A stretch of 44,337 bases of DNA from positions 1 to 44,337 of the IMG/VR virus record IMGVR_UViG_3300030090_001109, one strand, 5' to 3'. Under the pieces are notes generated by a model, which was given only the letters and a program-made list of their open reading frames with translations, was not told the DNA's origin and searched no databases. Positions 217 to 44,337 of the stretch are shown here, piece by piece. Within the stretch, counting starts at the first letter, position 1, and every line of letters starts with the position of its first letter. Source of the stretch: a virus. The position numbers and the translations under genes are program-made.

Positions 217-1869
217 TTATACTTGATAGCTTCCAGCCATCATCATTTTGCTGTTGTTTGCTAAATTGTTTGCTACTGTTAGATTTACAGCGTGTCCACT
301 ACTATCAGGAAATAAGTACAAATATATTCGATTAGCGTTAGCCTCGACATATCCAACAGGACTGTCTGTTCCGTTATACCCTTGAAGAGTATCCATGTAT
401 CCAAATGATACACAACCAAAAGCAGGTCCTTGACCAGTATTAGATACAGGAGTATAAGGTAATCCATCAACAAACAAAATTCCAGAACCGTTAGAGTTAA
501 CTACATTAATTCTTAAATATATTTGAAAATGAACTACTCGACCAACTTTTGTATATTGACCTTGTTGGTCGTAATAAGTAATATTAGGAGAACTACTTGT
601 CATGTTAAAAGAAGGTGTAAACGAGCCTTCTTCATAGTCGTCGAGTAACTCATTTGTAGCACCACTAGCATCACCTGTAGCACTAAAGTCAATACCATGA
701 CCAGATGCAAAGGATAAGTTTCCATTAACTACGTCTAGGTTTCCATTAGCTTGAATTTTAAGTTTTTCACTTGGAGTAGATGTATCACCACCTGTATAAA
801 AACCCATATGGTCAGTGGTATGGTCATAAATAACTTTTCCAGCGTAAGAACCTGCGTCACTACCACTATAAAGGTGACTATCTGTAAAATATAATCTTCC
901 AGTACCATTGTTAGCAGATCTTATTTCTATAGCACATGCATCTCCAGAACCAGTATTTGCTACTGTTAATTTTCTAGATGTAAACGGTGCTTCTTGGTCA
1001 GTATTAACTAGAAGTTGTGAACCATTATAAATTAAATCAGACTCTGCTTCTAAAGTATTAGCAGTATTAGAACCAGTAATAACTTTATTATTTGCGTTGT
1101 TGTTTATTGTTGTACCAGATACAGTCTCAAACGTAGGATCTGCTCCGTTGTTTGCACGTAGAAACTTACCATTGTTAGATGATGTACCGTGTGGTAGTTT
1201 GGCTAGTGTTACTGCTTCGTCAGCTATATTAGCTGTTCCAACAGCATTAGCTGCTAATTTAGCATTAGTAACTACACCACTATTTATTTTATCTGTGGTA
1301 ACTGCATTAGTAGCTAGTTTAGCTTCTGTAACTGCACCATTAGCTATAGTCAAAGACGTAGATCCAGTTACATCACCAGTATGTGTAGCGTTGGTAGTCT
1401 TGGCTGTGTTTGCTGCTATAGATGCTACAACAGAGTTAGCTAATTTGTCGTTGTTTACTGCATCATCTGCTAGTTTAGCTGTAGTTACACCACCGTCTGC
1501 TAACGCACCAGTAATATATAGTATACCGTTCATAGCAGCGTGACTGGTACACTGATAGTATAGGACATCAGGAGCATCATGTTGTACTTCTACAATGACT
1601 GTACCACTACCAGCGTTGTTAGTTACGCCAGTGTTGTATGCAGTACCGCTTGCTCCAGATGTGCTTTGTATACGTATAGGATGACCGCCTGAGCCATTCT
1701 CAAATCTATACGTTTTACCTCTTGTAAGGTAAAGGGTAGGGTTGTTGACAGTGCCATTTAACCCTTCTCCTTGAAATGTGTAGGCACTAGAACCGCTAGC
1801 ACCTATTGTAAAGACATGATCCAGAGCTATCTCATCTAGACCAGCCTTATTTATTTGTGTTAAAGCCAT
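217..1869 (-). CDS. Tail fibre / receptor-binding protein with cupredoxin-like N-terminus
   Basis: 550 residues. Residues about 20-122 look like a cupredoxin-type beta-sandwich: GHPIRI contains His63, and the loop YYQCTSHAAM contains Cys107, His110 and Met113, the four residue types of a type 1 copper site. Residues about 124-235 hold low-complexity VTTAKLAD-type repeats and an IAANTAKTTNATHTGDVTG module also present in the long fibre. After a variable middle, LDDYEEGSFTP (about residue 405) opens a C-terminal beta-rich tip, probably the receptor-binding part. It sits downstream of the main fibre and an 84-residue protein. The fibre role comes from position and repeat type; copper binding is inference. 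A divergent version of the second half is at 43165-44337. Confidence 0.8.
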   Translation of the reverse strand: MALTQINKAGLDEIALDHVFTIGASGSSAYTFQGEGLNGTVNNPTLYLTRGKTYRFENGSGGHPIRIQSTSGASGTAYNTGVTNNAGSGTVIVEVQHDAPDVLYYQCTSHAAMNGILYITGALADGGVTTAKLADDAVNNDKLANSVVASIAANTAKTTNATHTGDVTGSTSLTIANGAVTEAKLATNAVTTDKINSGVVTNAKLAANAVGTANIADEAVTLAKLPHGTSSNNGKFLRANNGADPTFETVSGTTINNNANNKVITGSNTANTLEAESDLIYNGSQLLVNTDQEAPFTSRKLTVANTGSGDACAIEIRSANNGTGRLYFTDSHLYSGSDAGSYAGKVIYDHTTDHMGFYTGGDTSTPSEKLKIQANGNLDVVNGNLSFASGHGIDFSATGDASGATNELLDDYEEGSFTPSFNMTSSSPNITYYDQQGQYTKVGRVVHFQIYLRINVVNSNGSGILFVDGLPYTPVSNTGQGPAFGCVSFGYMDTLQGYNGTDSPVGYVEANANRIYLYLFPDSSGHAVNLTVANNLANNSKMMMAGSYQV

Positions 1870-2124: not shown

Positions 2125-5100
2125 TTATTTGCCCTCCAAGGCTGTGACTTTTGCTGATAACTCTTTGACTGCGTTAACTAATGCCCATATAATCGGATCA
2201 CTATTAACAGTCTTTGTTCCTTTTTCACTTACACTAATACACTCAGGTAAAATCTTTTCTATTTCTTGTGCAATAACACCTGTTTGAATTTTACCTTCTT
2301 TACCTTTACCAATAACAACTTGATTAGGACTGTCAGCTAGTGGGAACTGACTCATGTCAATTTCATCTTCTGTTCTATATTCAAAATTAGCTACTCTTAG
2401 TTGATCTATTTCAGCAAGACCCTTCGTGCTATTAGTAATATTTTTCTTTAATCTTTCATCAGATGTTGTTGACCAATAACCACTATTGTTTCCTTGATAA
2501 CAAGCACCACTACTATTACCATGAATCCAAACTGCGGAATTACCTGGGCCTTGAGAACCTCTTGCTATAAAAAGTTCATTACTAAAATTACCTTGATTTC
2601 TTCCAGCGTAAAAACCTAAAAAGACATTTTGATAACCTGTTGTAATTTGACTTCCACATTCGTAACCTATTCCAGTATTATAGTAACCAGTTGTAAGTGC
2701 TGGCATTCCATCTGCACCTACCATCACATTGATTCGGCCAGTTGTACAAGAATTTAAAGTATTTTTACCAATTCCAACATTAGCATCACCTGTTGTGTTG
2801 TTCTGTAAGCATTGGAAACCTATACCAACGTTAGCGTGATGTTGAGTTTGTCTTAAAGCTCGATATCCAACAGCAGTATTATAATGAGTTGTTGTGTTTG
2901 CTGATAAAGCTGATCTACCTACAGCAGTGTTAGATACTCCAGTCGTGTTAGCATCTAAAGCATCACAACCTACGGCTGTATTGTCAGTTCCAGTTGTGTT
3001 TGCTGCTAAAGCACTTTTTCCAACAGCAGTGCCCTGTGCTCCAGTTGTGTTTTGTGTTAATGCTGAAGTTCCAACAGCTACGTTTGAAGCTCCAGAAGTA
3101 TTACTTCTTAGAGAATTAGACCCAATACCAGTATTGTTATGTGTTGTATTGGCATGTAAAGAAAAATGCCCTATTGCAACATTATGAGTACCAGTTTGGT
3201 TTCCACCAAGCGAACCATCACCTATCATTACGTTAGCTGCTCCAGTGGTTATAGCATCACCAGCTTGCCAACCTACAGCAGTGTTATAACTACCAGTTGC
3301 AGAAGCTAAAGCCTGATAACCAACTGCTGTAGTTTGAAGTACACCACTTGTAACACTTCCTAAAGCGTCATATCCTACAGCAGTCAATGCAGATGATGTA
3401 GTACAGGCATCTAAAGCTCCAGAACCTAGAGCAGTGTTATAAGCTCCAGTTGTGTTTAGTACTAAAGCATTTTTTCCTATAGCAGTATTATTGCTTGCCG
3501 TAGTGTTGTTTGCTAATGCACTTTCACCCAAGGCTGTGTTTTGTCCTCCTGTGGTGTTATCCAACATTGAGTAAGCACCTATAGAGACATTTTCAGTTCC
3601 AGTTGTATTTGCACCTAATGCAGCAAAGCCTACGGCAGTGTTGTTAGCAGCAGTGGTGTTATCATCTAAAGCTGCTCTTCCGAAAGCTGTGTTGTTATAC
3701 CCCGTAGTATTTGCATACAAAGCCGCAGCACCCATAGCAGTATTATCATAACCAGTAGTAGTAGAATATAAAGCACTACCTCCAACAGCTATGTTTCGAT
3801 CTCCAGTAGTAATACTCAATCCAGTATTTTTACCAAATAAAGTATTACTTACTGCATCTGTACCTGAGAAATTTGATCCAGCTCCATCACCGCCTACAGT
3901 GTTACCTTGTCCGTCACTTGTTACACCAGCAGAAAAAGCATTTGTAGAAGCTGCTGTAACACGTCCCTGAGCGTCTACAGTAATCGCTGGGATGGCTGTG
4001 GCTGAACCATAGCTACCAGCTGTTACAGACGTATTAGCGAGCTTTGCAGCAGTCACTGCGTCATCTGCTATTTTAGCTGTAGTTACATTTGCATCTACTA
4101 TCGAAGCTGTAACAACTGCACTACTTGCAAGTTTAGCTGCTGTAACTGCGTCATCTGCAATCTTTGCTGTAGTTACAGCTCCAGAAGCAATCGTTAAAGA
4201 TGTAGCTCCTGTAACATCTCCTGTGTGCGTAGCGTTAGTTGTCTTAGCTGTGTTAGCTGCAATTTCTGAGTTAATAGAGTTTGCAAGTTTATCTGTTGTA
4301 ACTGCATCATCTGCAATCTTAGCTGTAGTTACGTTTGCATCTGTAATCTTTGCAGTTGTAACTGATCCGTTCTGTAGTATGGCTGTTGTAACTGTGTTGT
4401 CGCTAGGTGTACCTATTCCGACTGTTGATCCGATGACAGTAACGAAAATACTAGCACCATTAGCAGGGGCGGACCCAAAGATAATGTCATTGCCAACAAG
4501 AACGTATCCCTCGCTTGGCTGGCTTGATCCAGCGTTAGGTTTCTGAATGACTCCATCGACACTAACAAGTAACTGTTGTGCATCAGGTGGTGCATTACTA
4601 ATTGTAAATCTATAAGCTGTTCCATTTGCTGTTGCACTACCTCCACCTGTACTTGATGAGCTAGATATTGTAGATATAAAGAAATTACCAATTGCAGATG
4701 ACTCTTCCCAGGCAGAGTTTTGACTAGAGTAAACCATAAGTTTACTGTTAGTTGTGTCGTACCATAAGTCACCACCATCTAGAGAAGATGTAGGTGCAGA
4801 AGAAGACACTCTGTATCTGTTTGAAAATGAGTTTACTGTTGCACTGATAGCTGCAATATCCGCAGCACTAGCTAATTGTTTGTGGAATGTATATGTATGT
4901 AATGTTGTTGTAGTCTGAACCTGTAGTCCACTGCTTGCAGCTAGACTAGTATTACGTAGTGTTGTTGGAAACCCAGTTATAGTTACTGTGTTACCTGTGC
5001 CAGCACCGTTAGCTATGGTTGCTACACCAGAATTGTTTATAGTAATTGCACTTCCACTACTTACTTGTGATATAGACACAACAGTACCAGCACCGTTACT

Positions 5101-6402
5101 GGGGTCTGGGTTTGTAGCAGGGAAACTTGTTTCGTCAGCAATAGCTACAAAACCACCAAGAGCATTAGTAACTGCAAGTATCTGATCGTTTACAGCTTTT
5201 GATGTAGGTATACGAGTATCGCTAGATGTTAAAGTTGTTTCAAGTGTTATACCATCAAGCTGATTTAGCTCTGCTGTAGTTGCTGTCAGTGCTGTAGAAC
5301 TTGCTAGGTTTGACGCAGTTGTTGACTGCATACCAGCTAGTGTTGAAAGCTCACTGTCAGCTATCTTGTCAGTTGTAACAGCATTGCTTGCTAGTTTAGC
5401 TGTTGTAATATTAGCGTCTGCTATTTTTGCAGTAGTTACCTGATTATTACCTATATGTGCTGTATCAATAGATCCGTCAACGTAATGCTCAGAGTCTATA
5501 GAGTCGTCAGCTATCTTAGTACCATTAACTGCATCAGCTGCTATTTTTGCTGTTGTCACATTTGCATCTACAATTTTAGCAGTTGTTATCTGTGCATCAG
5601 CTATATGTGCAGTGTCGATAGACCCATCAACATAGTGTTCTGAGTTAATCTGGTCATCAGCTATCTTAGCTCCAGTTACTGCGTCAGATGCTAATTTAGC
5701 TGTTGTTACATTACTGTCAGCTATCTTTGCTGTAGTAACTTGACTGTTACCTATATGAGCTGTATCAATACTACCGTCTACATAATGTTCAGAGTCTATA
5801 CTGTCATCTGCTATCTTCGTACCGTTGACTGCATCAGCTGCTATTTTATCTGTAGTGACAACACCAGTAGCTAATTTTGTAGTAATGATTGTACTATTAG
5901 CTAATTTTGCAGCAGTCACCGCACTGTCAGCTATGTCTGTTGTAGCTATTGTGCCATCTAATATTTTATCGCTTGTTATTGCACCTGTATCTATTTGCTC
6001 CGCTAATACAGGATTATTTTGTAATTCGTGTATAGCATATAATGCTTGTTCTGTATTAGAGTTTAAATCAATAGCTCTTATAGACGAACCAGCTGCATAT
6101 ACAGCTTTAGGATCATCATCACCTGTAGATTTACCAACAGTTGTCTGTCTATATACTCTTACTAATACTCCTGATTTAGGTGCACCAGTAGTTTCTTGTA
6201 CAGAACTATCTATACTTGTATTGTTAAAAGTTATTTTGGTGGGATTGCTTGCAGTATCAACTGCATATTTAGTTGTCGCTTGTGTCACTCCGTTAAGAGC
6301 AACTTTTACATCTTCAGTTTGTAAGACAGGGAAAGTGAACGTAAATTCCAAATCGGAACCATTAGCCGCACCTCCACCGTTGTCGGTGTATGTAATTGGC
6401 AT
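2125..6402 (-). CDS. Long tail fibre: T7-type N-terminus, repeats, S74 self-cleaving chaperone
   Basis: 1425 residues. Residues 1 to about 130 (MPITYTDNGGGAANGSDLEF, then VRVYRQTT and IRAIDLN) match the T7 gp17 N-terminal domain that anchors a fibre to the tail. Residues about 140-365 and 690-800 are VTTAKIAD-type repeats, including three copies of HYVDGSIDTAHI. Residues about 845-1270 hold about 25 repeats of the form NTAVGxxAL-xNTTG, similar to the beta-roll heads of trimeric adhesins. The C-terminus is a Peptidase_S74 intramolecular chaperone: SDERLK gives Ser1314 and Lys1319, with the spacing of the autocleavage dyad of phage endosialidases, followed by a short heptad coiled coil. Mature fibres are therefore expected to lose roughly the last 110 residues. 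Confidence 0.93.
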   Translation of the reverse strand: MPITYTDNGGGAANGSDLEFTFTFPVLQTEDVKVALNGVTQATTKYAVDTASNPTKITFNNTSIDSSVQETTGAPKSGVLVRVYRQTTVGKSTGDDDPKAVYAAGSSIRAIDLNSNTEQALYAIHELQNNPVLAEQIDTGAITSDKILDGTIATTDIADSAVTAAKLANSTIITTKLATGVVTTDKIAADAVNGTKIADDSIDSEHYVDGSIDTAHIGNSQVTTAKIADSNVTTAKLASDAVTGAKIADDQINSEHYVDGSIDTAHIADAQITTAKIVDANVTTAKIAADAVNGTKIADDSIDSEHYVDGSIDTAHIGNNQVTTAKIADANITTAKLASNAVTTDKIADSELSTLAGMQSTTASNLASSTALTATTAELNQLDGITLETTLTSSDTRIPTSKAVNDQILAVTNALGGFVAIADETSFPATNPDPSNGAGTVVSISQVSSGSAITINNSGVATIANGAGTGNTVTITGFPTTLRNTSLAASSGLQVQTTTTLHTYTFHKQLASAADIAAISATVNSFSNRYRVSSSAPTSSLDGGDLWYDTTNSKLMVYSSQNSAWEESSAIGNFFISTISSSSSTGGGSATANGTAYRFTISNAPPDAQQLLVSVDGVIQKPNAGSSQPSEGYVLVGNDIIFGSAPANGASIFVTVIGSTVGIGTPSDNTVTTAILQNGSVTTAKITDANVTTAKIADDAVTTDKLANSINSEIAANTAKTTNATHTGDVTGATSLTIASGAVTTAKIADDAVTAAKLASSAVVTASIVDANVTTAKIADDAVTAAKLANTSVTAGSYGSATAIPAITVDAQGRVTAASTNAFSAGVTSDGQGNTVGGDGAGSNFSGTDAVSNTLFGKNTGLSITTGDRNIAVGGSALYSTTTGYDNTAMGAAALYANTTGYNNTAFGRAALDDNTTAANNTAVGFAALGANTTGTENVSIGAYSMLDNTTGGQNTALGESALANNTTASNNTAIGKNALVLNTTGAYNTALGSGALDACTTSSALTAVGYDALGSVTSGVLQTTAVGYQALASATGSYNTAVGWQAGDAITTGAANVMIGDGSLGGNQTGTHNVAIGHFSLHANTTHNNTGIGSNSLRSNTSGASNVAVGTSALTQNTTGAQGTAVGKSALAANTTGTDNTAVGCDALDANTTGVSNTAVGRSALSANTTTHYNTAVGYRALRQTQHHANVGIGFQCLQNNTTGDANVGIGKNTLNSCTTGRINVMVGADGMPALTTGYYNTGIGYECGSQITTGYQNVFLGFYAGRNQGNFSNELFIARGSQGPGNSAVWIHGNSSGACYQGNNSGYWSTTSDERLKKNITNSTKGLAEIDQLRVANFEYRTEDEIDMSQFPLADSPNQVVIGKGKEGKIQTGVIAQEIEKILPECISVSEKGTKTVNSDPIIWALVNAVKELSAKVTALEGK

Positions 6403-26576: not shown

Positions 26577-26994
26577 TCGGGTTTAAATAAGTTATTGCTT
26601 TTTTGAGTAAATTTGTATCTTCATTAAATTTACCTAGACCAGTGTTGCATTCGTTACACAACCACCCTCTAAATAATAATGAGTCATGACAATGATCTAA
26701 ATATGTCTTACACACTTTGCCACATAAGTCACATTGTTCTGACTGTGGTGGTGCATTTTTACGTATCTCTCTACGATCTTTTGATATTTTACTGTCACAA
26801 CTTTTACAAAAACTCTTATAATGTATTTTTTTTGGAGTTGTATTAGATATTTTAAAATCTGATAATAATTTAAAATCTTTACATATACTGCATTGTCTAG
26901 TGAACTTCGCTCCAGTTGTTTCCTGACTTTGCTTCTGCTGCGATTGGGCAGCGTAACTTGTAATACACTCCAGCGTTAACTGCTGAGTTTTCAA
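26560..26994 (-). CDS. HNH endonuclease, recombination endonuclease VII-like
   Basis: 144 residues. Two zinc-binding halves are visible: Cys35, Cys38, Cys63, Cys66 and Cys88, Cys91 with Cys113, Cys116. Between the last pairs, YLDHCHDSLLFRGWLCNECN contains Asp100, His101 and His103, the catalytic beta-beta-alpha core of the T4 endonuclease VII family, with Asn117. The first 98 bases overlap the end of the DNA polymerase gene. T7 phages already resolve junctions with endonuclease I (present at 30296), so this is more likely a free-standing homing-type nuclease beside the polymerase, or a second resolvase. Confidence 0.85.
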   Translation of the reverse strand: MKTQQLTLECITSYAAQSQQKQSQETTGAKFTRQCSICKDFKLLSDFKISNTTPKKIHYKSFCKSCDSKISKDRREIRKNAPPQSEQCDLCGKVCKTYLDHCHDSLLFRGWLCNECNTGLGKFNEDTNLLKKAITYLNPNETTN

Positions 26995-28159
26995 GTTGTT
27001 GTTTTACCTCTTCTGTATATTTTGGATTACATTCGTATTGCAATTCATCGTGTATGAACGCAAGTTGTTTAGTGTGAAAGGGTTGTAATTGGTCGTTTGC
27101 TATTACCATCCAACGTTTTGCGATGATACCAGCGGAACATTGTAGAAGGTAATTTAATCCTTTGTGCGGTGAATCGACCAGCACCCTTCGTCCGTCACAT
27201 GCCAAGAGGTAACCATTAGCAGCCTTATCTGTAACCGCTGCCAATAAGTCGGAGAGTCCAGGGATTGCAGCAACGTAAGCCGCTCTAATCTCGGATCCTT
27301 TTTTACTGGCTTCCTTGGGTTGTAAAGAGTTATCATAACTCATACCTAGTTTAATATTTCCCCCACCATAAAGAAAGCAATATGTCACAGTCTTAACTTG
27401 GCGGCGGGTGATTCCTATTTTGTCAGCGTTAACTTGATGTATATCATCGTTTAGTAGTATGTCTGCGTATCGACCTCCGTCATACCGTCCGAGATAATGG
27501 GCTAACATTCGTAACTCGATACCGCTTAAATCGGCACCTACCATTATATTACCTGGACTTGCTGTAAATAGTTCTCTAAATTCTTTTTCTGCTGGCGACT
27601 GAGCCACGTTTGGTTTACGATGGGCACATCGAAATGTGTTTGTCGATACAGAACAATGATGATGAATCCTAGAGTTCGTACATAACCGAAGCCATGCGTT
27701 CACGCCTTGCGATATCATTCCTAGCTTCTTCTTTAGATCCAAAGCTTTCGCACATAACTTGCAAAAGGGATTCGATATCTCCGTCAGAGTGATTTCGTCT
27801 ATAATTGGTTTCCCAGTCTTCGTAGTCTGAGTCAATGTAATCTTCAGACGATTCTTTAATATCCATGCTATATGATCTCGTGATGTTGGATTAAACTCAA
27901 CTAATCTTTGTAACTCTGCTCCCTCGACATATCCTTGGGATGCGTTATTTCGTTTAGGTGTGAACATCTTTCCTCCAATGAGAGGGAATTGTTTTTGTAG
28001 TATTCCAGTAACTTCTTCCATCTCTCTTCTGAGATGTGATTCAAGTTGCTGACATTTTTGTTCATCGAATTGCCATCCATGAAGTTCTTGTTCTGTAAGT
28101 ATGTGTGCGACTTGGTGTTCTAACGTGCACCAGTCAGGTAAGGGCGGAAGTGCTCGCAT
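26897..28159 (-). CDS. DNA polymerase, family A, polymerase domain (separate ORF)
   Basis: 420 residues. Motif A is VGADLSGIELRMLAHYL (Asp210), motif B RRQVKTVTYCFLYGGG (Arg253, Lys256, Tyr264), motif C FIHDEL (His370, Asp371, Glu372). These are the fingers/palm residues of T7 gp5-like polymerases. The 3'-5' exonuclease part lies on a different, overlapping ORF (28120-28653), with a 40-base overlap and a -1 frame relation. The first residues (LPDWCTLEHQVAHILTEQE) read like the direct continuation of an exonuclease-thumb linker. Either two polypeptides assemble into one enzyme, or translation shifts frame, or one base is wrong here. Confidence 0.9.
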   Translation of the reverse strand: MRALPPLPDWCTLEHQVAHILTEQELHGWQFDEQKCQQLESHLRREMEEVTGILQKQFPLIGGKMFTPKRNNASQGYVEGAELQRLVEFNPTSRDHIAWILKNRLKITLTQTTKTGKPIIDEITLTEISNPFCKLCAKALDLKKKLGMISQGVNAWLRLCTNSRIHHHCSVSTNTFRCAHRKPNVAQSPAEKEFRELFTASPGNIMVGADLSGIELRMLAHYLGRYDGGRYADILLNDDIHQVNADKIGITRRQVKTVTYCFLYGGGNIKLGMSYDNSLQPKEASKKGSEIRAAYVAAIPGLSDLLAAVTDKAANGYLLACDGRRVLVDSPHKGLNYLLQCSAGIIAKRWMVIANDQLQPFHTKQLAFIHDELQYECNPKYTEEVKQQLENSAVNAGVYYKLRCPIAAEAKSGNNWSEVH

Positions 28160-28653
28160 AATTTAGTTGTAACTTTAACGTCTTGTACGCAATAGTCTTG
28201 CATCTCCTGGCTCCATTTTTGCCAGTCTGTTGTTTTACCAAACTCACCTTTGTATTCTTGTAATCGATAGCCATAACTTTCTAAGCTATGTCTACCATAC
28301 AACTGTAATGGCATTCTTGCTATGTTTCTTTTCTTATCTATCTCCATCATGTTTGGATGATATAAGCGAGATAAGATAAGAGTGTCAACAATAGAAGCAT
28401 TAGTATCAAACCAAGAATAAATTTTCCGAAGAACAGGTAAGTCGTAATTAATAACGTTATGGCCGACAAGAACATCAGCCGAACTGAGCCAATGCAAAGC
28501 TTCAGTGATTGGTCCTGATTGGTCACCTTGATTATTAAATACGAAGGTTTCCTCTTTCGTATTGTCGTATATGGCGATGCAATGTATCTCAGAAACGTCA
28601 TGCAATAATCCGTTTGTTTCGCAGTCAAATACGAGCATTTGCTTTTCCGACAT
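28120..28653 (-). CDS. DNA polymerase 3'-5' exonuclease domain (separate ORF)
   Basis: 177 residues with all three proofreading motifs: Exo I FDCETNG (Asp10, Glu12), Exo II VGHNVINYD (Asn66, Asp71) and Exo III YCVQD (Tyr154, Asp158). The protein ends nine residues after EHF in PYLTGAR, where a contiguous T7-type polymerase would run on into the thumb. The polymerase ORF starts at an ATG 40 bases before this stop. The catalytic residues are intact, so the domain should be active by itself or in complex with the polymerase ORF. Confidence 0.88.
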   Translation of the reverse strand: MSEKQMLVFDCETNGLLHDVSEIHCIAIYDNTKEETFVFNNQGDQSGPITEALHWLSSADVLVGHNVINYDLPVLRKIYSWFDTNASIVDTLILSRLYHPNMMEIDKKRNIARMPLQLYGRHSLESYGYRLQEYKGEFGKTTDWQKWSQEMQDYCVQDVKVTTKLCEHFRPYLTGAR

Positions 28654-43147: not shown

Positions 43148-43168
43148 ATAGACGTAGCTTCGGTCTAT
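43148..43168 (-). other. Short hairpin at the end of the alternative fibre
   Basis: ATAGAC-GTAGCTTCG-GTCTAT, six pairs with a nine-base loop, overlapping the fibre stop codon. No T-run follows on the minus strand, so it is not a clear terminator. Confidence 0.35.
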
Positions 43169-44337
43169 GAGTCTGTAAAGTATGTACCAGACATCATTAC
43201 ATATAAAGCACTTCTATGAAAGTCACTTGCAGGAAAATCAGTCCAAGAACTATTTGATCGTGAAAGTAATCCATACCAAATTGTTGTGTTACCACTTAAG
43301 TAAAAAGCGGGAAGATGTCCTGTATCAAATGGTACGTTATAATATAGTACGTCTGCTGTTACTCCACACGCACCATTGCTAGGTCGGTGTCCACCAGTAA
43401 ATGGCATGTTAAAAATCTGTACAGTACCAGAGGCACTATTATTTAAATCAACACTATTAAATCTTACTTGAACTGTAACTTGTCTACCAATTTTAATATA
43501 AGTACCTGTACCAGTAACGTAATAACTACCAGGATTACCAGTACCACCTAATCTAGGCGTAAATGAACCCTCCTCATAGTCGTCAAGTCCGTTGGCTGCT
43601 GCGGTGTCTCCGTTAAACTTAATACCATCAGCATCAGTAATAGTTGCTATACTTCCACCTCTAGTAGCAATAGTAAACTTACCTATTTCAGCAGAACTAC
43701 TATCAGTTAATCTACCAACTTCAAAAACAATGCCATTACTGCTGTTACCACTTGTGTTGTTTTGGTGAGCATACATAACGCTTTGGTTATATGTACCAGT
43801 TCTACTATTATTTTTAAAAGTAAACGGTTGCGTAGTGCTTCCCTGAGTAGAAATCTTACCAACACCAGTTAAAGCTATATTACCGACAACATCAACACCA
43901 TTGCCGTTTATATCTACAATTTCTGTACCAGCTATATCAACTTCTATACGATCATTTTCTGTAATATCAACTAAAGAAGTTCCGTTTTTAATATTAAAAT
44001 CGTTTACATCTAAATCAGCACCTAGCTGTGGACTTGTATCAGATACTAAATCTGTATTTACTGTCTCAAATGTAGGATCTGCTCCGTTGTTTGCACGTAA
44101 GAACTTACCATCGTTAGATGATGTGCCGTGTGGTAGTTTGTCTAGCGTTACTGCTTCGTCTACAATGTTAGATGTAGTAACTGCGTTATCTGCTATTTTA
44201 GCTGCGTTAACTGCACCAGTTGCTATTTTAGCTGTAGTTACATTAGCATCTGCAATTTTAGCTGTAGTTACAGCATTTGATGCTAACTTACCATTATCTA
44301 CTGAACCACCAGCTATTTTACCTTGTGTAACTGCATC
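43165..44337 (-). CDS. Alternative tail fibre, C-terminal 390 residues (5' end cut by window edge)
   Basis: The frame is open from the last base of the window (44337) to the stop at 43165. It starts within VTTAKIAD-type repeats, then has DEAVTLDKLPHGTSSNDGKF and LRANNGADPTFETV, nearly identical to the cupredoxin fibre at 1100-1215. The middle differs (GADLDVNDFNIKNGTSLVDI) and the tip after LDDYEEGSFTP is unrelated to the other fibre's beyond the module border. Same architecture, different presumed receptor-binding end. It is an alternative allele or a tandem paralogue. Confidence 0.82.
   Translation of the reverse strand, partial: DAVTQGKIAGGSVDNGKLASNAVTTAKIADANVTTAKIATGAVNAAKIADNAVTTSNIVDEAVTLDKLPHGTSSNDGKFLRANNGADPTFETVNTDLVSDTSPQLGADLDVNDFNIKNGTSLVDITENDRIEVDIAGTEIVDINGNGVDVVGNIALTGVGKISTQGSTTQPFTFKNNSRTGTYNQSVMYAHQNNTSGNSSNGIVFEVGRLTDSSSAEIGKFTIATRGGSIATITDADGIKFNGDTAAANGLDDYEEGSFTPRLGGTGNPGSYYVTGTGTYIKIGRQVTVQVRFNSVDLNNSASGTVQIFNMPFTGGHRPSNGACGVTADVLYYNVPFDTGHLPAFYLSGNTTIWYGLLSRSNSSWTDFPASDFHRSALYVMMSGTYFTDS

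Follow-up and report, generated by a model that had tools for sequence, protein, structure and literature searches.

The secondary tail fibre and its neighbourhood

The window analysed here (the whole 44,337-nucleotide stretch of viral record IMGVR_UViG_3300030090_001109) shows DNA similarity to the Prochlorococcus phages P-SSP7 and P-GSP1 across parts of its first 20 kb, and its gene order is that of internal core genes of a T7-like phage followed by two fibre genes. The first fibre (1425 aa; 2125–6402, minus strand), considered only as context, matches tail-fibre PHROGs and carries a C-terminal S74 chaperone (Peptidase_S74, 5e-11). It adjoins the 550-aa protein P0001 (217–1869, minus strand), residues 1–292 of which match phrog_892 (tail fiber protein; 6e-68); membership of PHROG 892 is supported by this profile match and by the structural-gene neighbourhood of first fibre and core genes, so that the initial annotation of the 550-aa protein as the second fibre is correct. 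The window is a P-GSP1/P-SSP7-like cyanophage, and the 550-aa protein, which carries a cupredoxin domain, is its secondary tail fibre.

The cupredoxin domain comprises residues 17–122 (1504–1821, minus strand). It is preceded by an N-terminal tip (residues 1–16; 1822–1869, minus strand) that is conserved together with it, with an identity of mostly 0.6–0.94 in podoviral homologues and nearly invariant columns in a full-length alignment (A4). Downstream of the domain lie a repeat/linker region with VTTAKLADDAV-type repeats (residues 123–250; 1120–1503, minus strand) and a variable distal fibre (residues 251–550; 220–1119, minus strand). The cupredoxin-like domain of the initial annotation was rightly recognized, although the coordinates given for it also include the N-terminal tip. 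Among homologous fibres, the cupredoxin domain is 80–100% identical, whereas identity is mostly 30–66% in the repeat region and mostly 15–40% in the distal 300 residues; every invariant column of A4 falls within residues 32–142. This contrast between a constant cupredoxin and a variable distal fibre places the domain in the constant, presumably virion-attached, end of the protein.

Two further features of the window are recorded here as separate observations. A fibre ORF at 43165–44337 (minus strand), open at the contig end, has a linker in common with the cupredoxin fibre (VTLxKLPHGTSSNxGKFLRANNGADPTFETV), which suggests shuffling of fibre modules; the open ORFs at 43165–44337 and 1–204 suggest that the contig ends lie near each other in the genome. 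The T7-like DNA polymerase (26897–28653, minus strand) is split into an exonuclease ORF (28120–28653) and a polymerase ORF (26897–28159) that overlap out of frame; this appears ordinary, as the same split is annotated in P-SSP7.

Ligand motif and predicted fold

The numbering of the four proposed ligands in the initial annotation is exact: His63 (1681–1683), the predicted first (N-terminal) copper ligand; Cys107 (1549–1551), the predicted thiolate ligand and the only Cys within the domain; His110 (1540–1542), the predicted second His ligand; and Met113 (1531–1533), the predicted axial ligand, all encoded on the minus strand. The C-x2-H-x2-M loop described there is likewise present (CTSHAAM) and has amicyanin spacing. 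When the protein was shuffled, C-x2-H-x2-M arose in 0.1% of cases and His-x30–60-C-x2-H-x2-M in 0.04%, and C-x2-H-x2-M is absent from every other open frame of at least 90 aa in all six frames of the whole window. These results, together with the invariance of the ligands in a broad alignment (A3, below), rule out a chance motif.

An AlphaFold2 model of the domain, for which an alignment of 31 diverse homologous domains (A1) was the input, has a mean pLDDT of 93.5 (the five models span 82 to 93.5). DSSP assigns it eight strands: Cys107 closes the penultimate strand, His110 and Met113 occupy the short loop before the last strand, and His63 lies in a loop preceding an inner strand, the arrangement of established type 1 copper proteins; the ligand order (His...Cys-xn-His-xn-Met) and the placement of the ligands on strands and loops are thus those of a type 1 copper site. 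Foldseek comparison with the PDB returned only copper proteins at E ≤ 0.001 (29 of 29 matches), among them rusticyanin (9.8e-6), three-domain nitrite reductase, plastocyanin, amicyanin, multicopper oxidases and purple cupredoxin. Model confidence and PDB matches together indicate a Greek-key beta-sandwich of the plastocyanin/azurin type, and the check by structure prediction that had been proposed with the initial annotation is passed at the level of fold and strand placement, the best structural neighbours being copper proteins. TM-scores to solved structures are moderate (0.4–0.6), which points to a distant member of the cupredoxins. A full-length model built from close relatives only was not used; its mean pLDDT is 62 and it is poor throughout, including the cupredoxin because the close relatives are nearly identical there, so the confident domain model depends on the diversity of A1. 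Among BFVD matches, giant-virus 'Beta-sandwich proteins' (Marseillevirus LCMAC201/202, Pithovirus LCPAC302/304) resemble the fold, with TM-scores of 0.61–0.71.

At the level of sequence, a search with the single domain only hints at a cupredoxin (PDB 2vmj, 0.025) and the A1 profile reaches 6e-4. A significant relation to known cupredoxins was obtained with A3, a profile of 35 diverse viral and cellular domains (28–64% identity to the window domain; rows picked by hand from profile hits), which matches nitrite reductase (6e-7), plastocyanin 1kdi (1.7e-5), amicyanin (1.6e-4) and also rusticyanin, and which brings the His and the Cys/His/Met of 1kdi into register with H63, C107, H110, and M113. 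The window domain has no match to any Pfam or NCBIfam model, including PF00127 (Copper-bind), PF13473 (Cupredoxin_1) and the amicyanin model TIGR02657; divergent phage relatives fall just under the PF00127 cut-off (best 21.0 vs. 21.2), and a relative scored against TIGR02657 (locus L265) reaches 19.3 against a cut-off of 110.2. The domain is a member of the cupredoxin superfamily that lies outside every curated family tested and in a new setting. Residues 17–122 are confirmed as a real cupredoxin domain with an amicyanin-spaced type 1 copper site, the site being predicted in the absence of metal data.

Conservation and distribution of the family

All four ligands are invariant in A1. In A3, full invariance is confined to the columns of H63, Y105, C107, H110, and M113; Tyr105 (1555–1557, minus strand), two residues before Cys107, is the sole one besides the ligands, and no glycine or core residue is conserved as strongly as the ligands. 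The second check proposed with the initial annotation, conservation across homologues, is likewise passed, since nowhere in the family is conservation higher than at these four residues; within the limits of a fold prediction, neither of the refuting outcomes named there has arisen. Across all loci gathered, His-Cys-His-Met is kept in 174 of 177 distinct complete family domains (62 clusters at 70% identity), and the three that deviate, in phage PSS2 (DATM) and at loci L120 (D-TI) and L250 (GNRM), each lack three or four ligands; loss of just one or two was found in none of the 177. Such all-or-nothing retention is what selection on a metal site produces. When ligand loss was sought with the His63–Cys107 stretch, without any ligand, as the query, none was found among close relatives. 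These counts carry the caveats that profiles reward ligands, that some partial matches at the ends of stretches could not be scored, and that one pattern of the A1 scan included Cys and His; for the phage collection, the search was a pattern-free tblastn. In P-GSP1 and 10 further distinct sequences the domain protein equals that of the window despite 8–23 synonymous codon differences, with zero replacements, and on such codon comparisons the cupredoxin domain is under strong purifying selection. The first His is followed directly by Pro in 166 of the 174 full-ligand domains and by Asn in none; in classical plastocyanin, azurin and amicyanin, Asn directly follows the N-terminal His ligand.

Cyanophage tail fibres and baseplate proteins commonly carry the module, which is also widespread among proteins secreted by bacteria. 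At least one match to the window domain (E ≤ 1e-3) occurs in 345 phage records, nearly all of cyanophages, and as many as four or five copies can be spread over the different tail proteins of one phage, as in P-SSM2, Syn19 and P-HM2. Giant gp7/gp10-like baseplate wedge proteins contain highly divergent cupredoxin-like domains that have all four ligands (locus L268, 3001–3318; more in P-HM2), with ligand-less copies beside them. Cellular relatives (~37–50% identity) occur among the proteins secreted by Flavobacteriaceae, Dokdonella, a myxobacterium and others; several other 'genome' hits resemble phage or prophage fibre proteins, and none of the 28 genome loci is cyanobacterial. One locus (L157, 3357–5309, plus strand) encodes flavobacterial lipoproteins with six Lipoprotein_15 repeats and a C-terminal cupredoxin of the phage-fibre family. 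In a tree of viral and cellular domains the rows are mixed, and the origin and direction of transfer remain unresolved. Recent capture of a host plastocyanin is unsupported, given this unresolved tree, the lack of a Pfam or NCBIfam match, and nearest cellular relatives that are non-cyanobacterial secreted proteins. A search limited to one PMC library found no paper linking cupredoxins with phage tails (other papers, and domain databases such as SUPERFAMILY and Gene3D, which may already tag some of these proteins, were outside its scope); the only paper found on cupredoxins and cyanophages concerns Borg elements, and where the P-SCSP1u cryo-EM paper mentions copper, it refers to the EM grid.

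Position in the virion and possible roles

In the cyanomyoviruses Syn19, P-RSM4, and S-RIM14, the domain is the C-terminal domain of a gp9-like baseplate wedge/fibre connector, and this connector C-terminus is the site of the module in most cyanomyoviruses. In S-SCSM1 (residues 99–203) and P-SSM2 (residues 62–166; both in open-frame numbering), it lies near the N-terminus of the proximal long fibre; the S-SCSM1 genome has one copy, on the fibre. The module is thus probably carried by either partner of the same fibre joint, an inference from annotation without a structure. The S-SCSM1 relative is labelled 'virion protein' in its record, and virion proteins of that phage have been identified by mass spectrometry (PMC9602691); there are no particle data for the phage of the window. 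No match to the domain was found in the 25 kb of P-SSP7 searched, which include its structural genes; a fibre joint can therefore be built without the domain, and the module is accessory.

The preferred reading is that of an adaptor locked by metal at the joint of the fibre, and not of a device for host contact: a cupredoxin with an amicyanin-spaced type 1 site that acts as a copper-binding, modular adaptor. The site would bind copper acquired in the lysing cell or from seawater; the bound metal would tie the His63 loop to the Cys-His-Met loop, and this tie would lock the beta-sandwich as a rigid adaptor where the fibre joins the tail or baseplate. Fold prediction, ligand set, conservation, N-terminal position and purifying selection support this reading, in which copper binding and locking are themselves inferred, and it is held with about as much confidence as doubt. 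Conservation of the ligands across marine phages suggests that virus particles carry copper, although no metal has been measured. The cyanobacterial cytosol, in which virions are assembled, is thought to be very low in free copper; this counts against the explanation, as do the absence of metal data, the lack of a Pfam or NCBIfam match, the His-Pro at the first ligand, TM-scores of only 0.4–0.6, P-SSP7 without a match, and the equation of the myoviral with the podoviral joint, which rests on annotation alone.

The initial annotation had offered stabilisation of the fibre, binding of cell-surface copper, redox contact with the host and a structural relic as possible roles. The relic is the option that the data oppose most clearly. 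It supposes a metal-free site in which only the beta-sandwich matters and the residues persist through folding needs or shared ancestry, and the apparently metal-free copies of PSS2, L120, and L250 do speak for it; these copies, however, lack three or four ligands at once, partial loss occurs in no complete domain, and the ligands surpass every glycine and core residue of A3 in conservation. With the ligands kept or lost as a set under strong purifying selection, a relic is very unlikely. A metal other than copper, most likely zinc, could be held in the virion in a purely structural role; cupredoxins produced recombinantly are generally known to bind zinc if copper is in short supply, and the cytosol holds little copper, yet the axial Met, an unusual ligand for zinc but a typical one for type 1 copper, does not vary even between very distant members of the family. 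Occupancy by zinc in the virion cannot be excluded by sequence, and is regarded as distinctly improbable.

Of the functional options offered earlier, fibre stabilisation fits best, with copper binding inferred and no metal data; binding of copper on the host surface, or redox contact with the host, is harder to reconcile with a domain located in the conserved N-terminal portion of the fibre, away from the variable distal portion. Metal receptors of the host have been proposed as targets of phage tails that bear putative iron sites (PMC11705849), and this proposal has a copper analogue, in which copper is presented to the host as a Trojan horse or bound at the cell surface and aids adsorption; receptor-binding parts are distal and variable, whereas the domain is N-terminal and varies less than any other part of the fibre, and such a role receives little credence. 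The retention of a full electron-transfer ligand set, axial Met included, makes a redox or trigger role possible: Cu(I)/Cu(II) cycling might exchange electrons with a partner on the host surface, or sense redox conditions near a photosynthetic cell, and trigger rearrangement of the fibre. The structural neighbours are electron-transfer proteins and some phages carry several copies, but no redox partner is known, and a domain that belongs to the constant proximal part of the fibre and recurs in numerous unrelated baseplate proteins looks more like a general module than like a docking protein; a redox-active site is accordingly thought unlikely, without being dismissed. That cyanophage particles are copper proteins whose type 1 sites, in the tail-fibre joint and baseplate, are redox switches, the oxidation state of copper near the host helping to trigger fibre rearrangement and infection, is a conjecture to be regarded as rather improbable.

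Were copper bound by the metal-locked adaptor, a blue-copper module would be present in the tail machinery of some of the sea's most abundant viruses, whose hosts, in the virus group of the window, are the ocean's most abundant photosynthetic bacteria. It would give type 1 copper a new place, phage assembly or infection a possible metal requirement, and seawater a particulate copper ligand. A name and a testable chemistry are in any case supplied for a domain of hundreds of cyanophage proteins annotated merely as hypothetical, fibre or baseplate.

Among known cupredoxins, plastocyanin, rusticyanin and the domains of copper nitrite reductase give the best fold and profile matches, and the ligands of plastocyanin align; the Cys-His-Met loop of plastocyanin is longer, all three are free redox proteins or enzymes and not virion modules, and their TM-scores are 0.4–0.6. 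Amicyanin and the cupredoxins into which an amicyanin loop has been engineered (PDB 2vmj, 2ux6) resemble the phage domain in the length of the C-x2-H-x2-M loop, the upstream His and the fold, but are small periplasmic electron carriers or a mutant nitrite reductase of low sequence identity, and amicyanin, as is generally known, has His-Asn where the phage family has His-Pro. Within phages, the same domain is contained in PHROG 892 and in PHROG 677 (baseplate wedge/tail fiber connector; positions 308–409 of 412), the annotations of which name neither cupredoxin nor copper; it is C-terminal in the myoviral connector and near the N-terminus of the podoviral fibre. Ig-like accessory domains of phage structural proteins are likewise mobile beta-sandwich modules, of a different sequence family and without a metal site. 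Putative iron sites with six repeated HxH motifs have been described in the tail fibres of Alteromonas phage R22Y (PMC11705849), which, though lacking a cupredoxin fold, share with the phage cupredoxin a metal proposed in the tail fibre of a marine phage.
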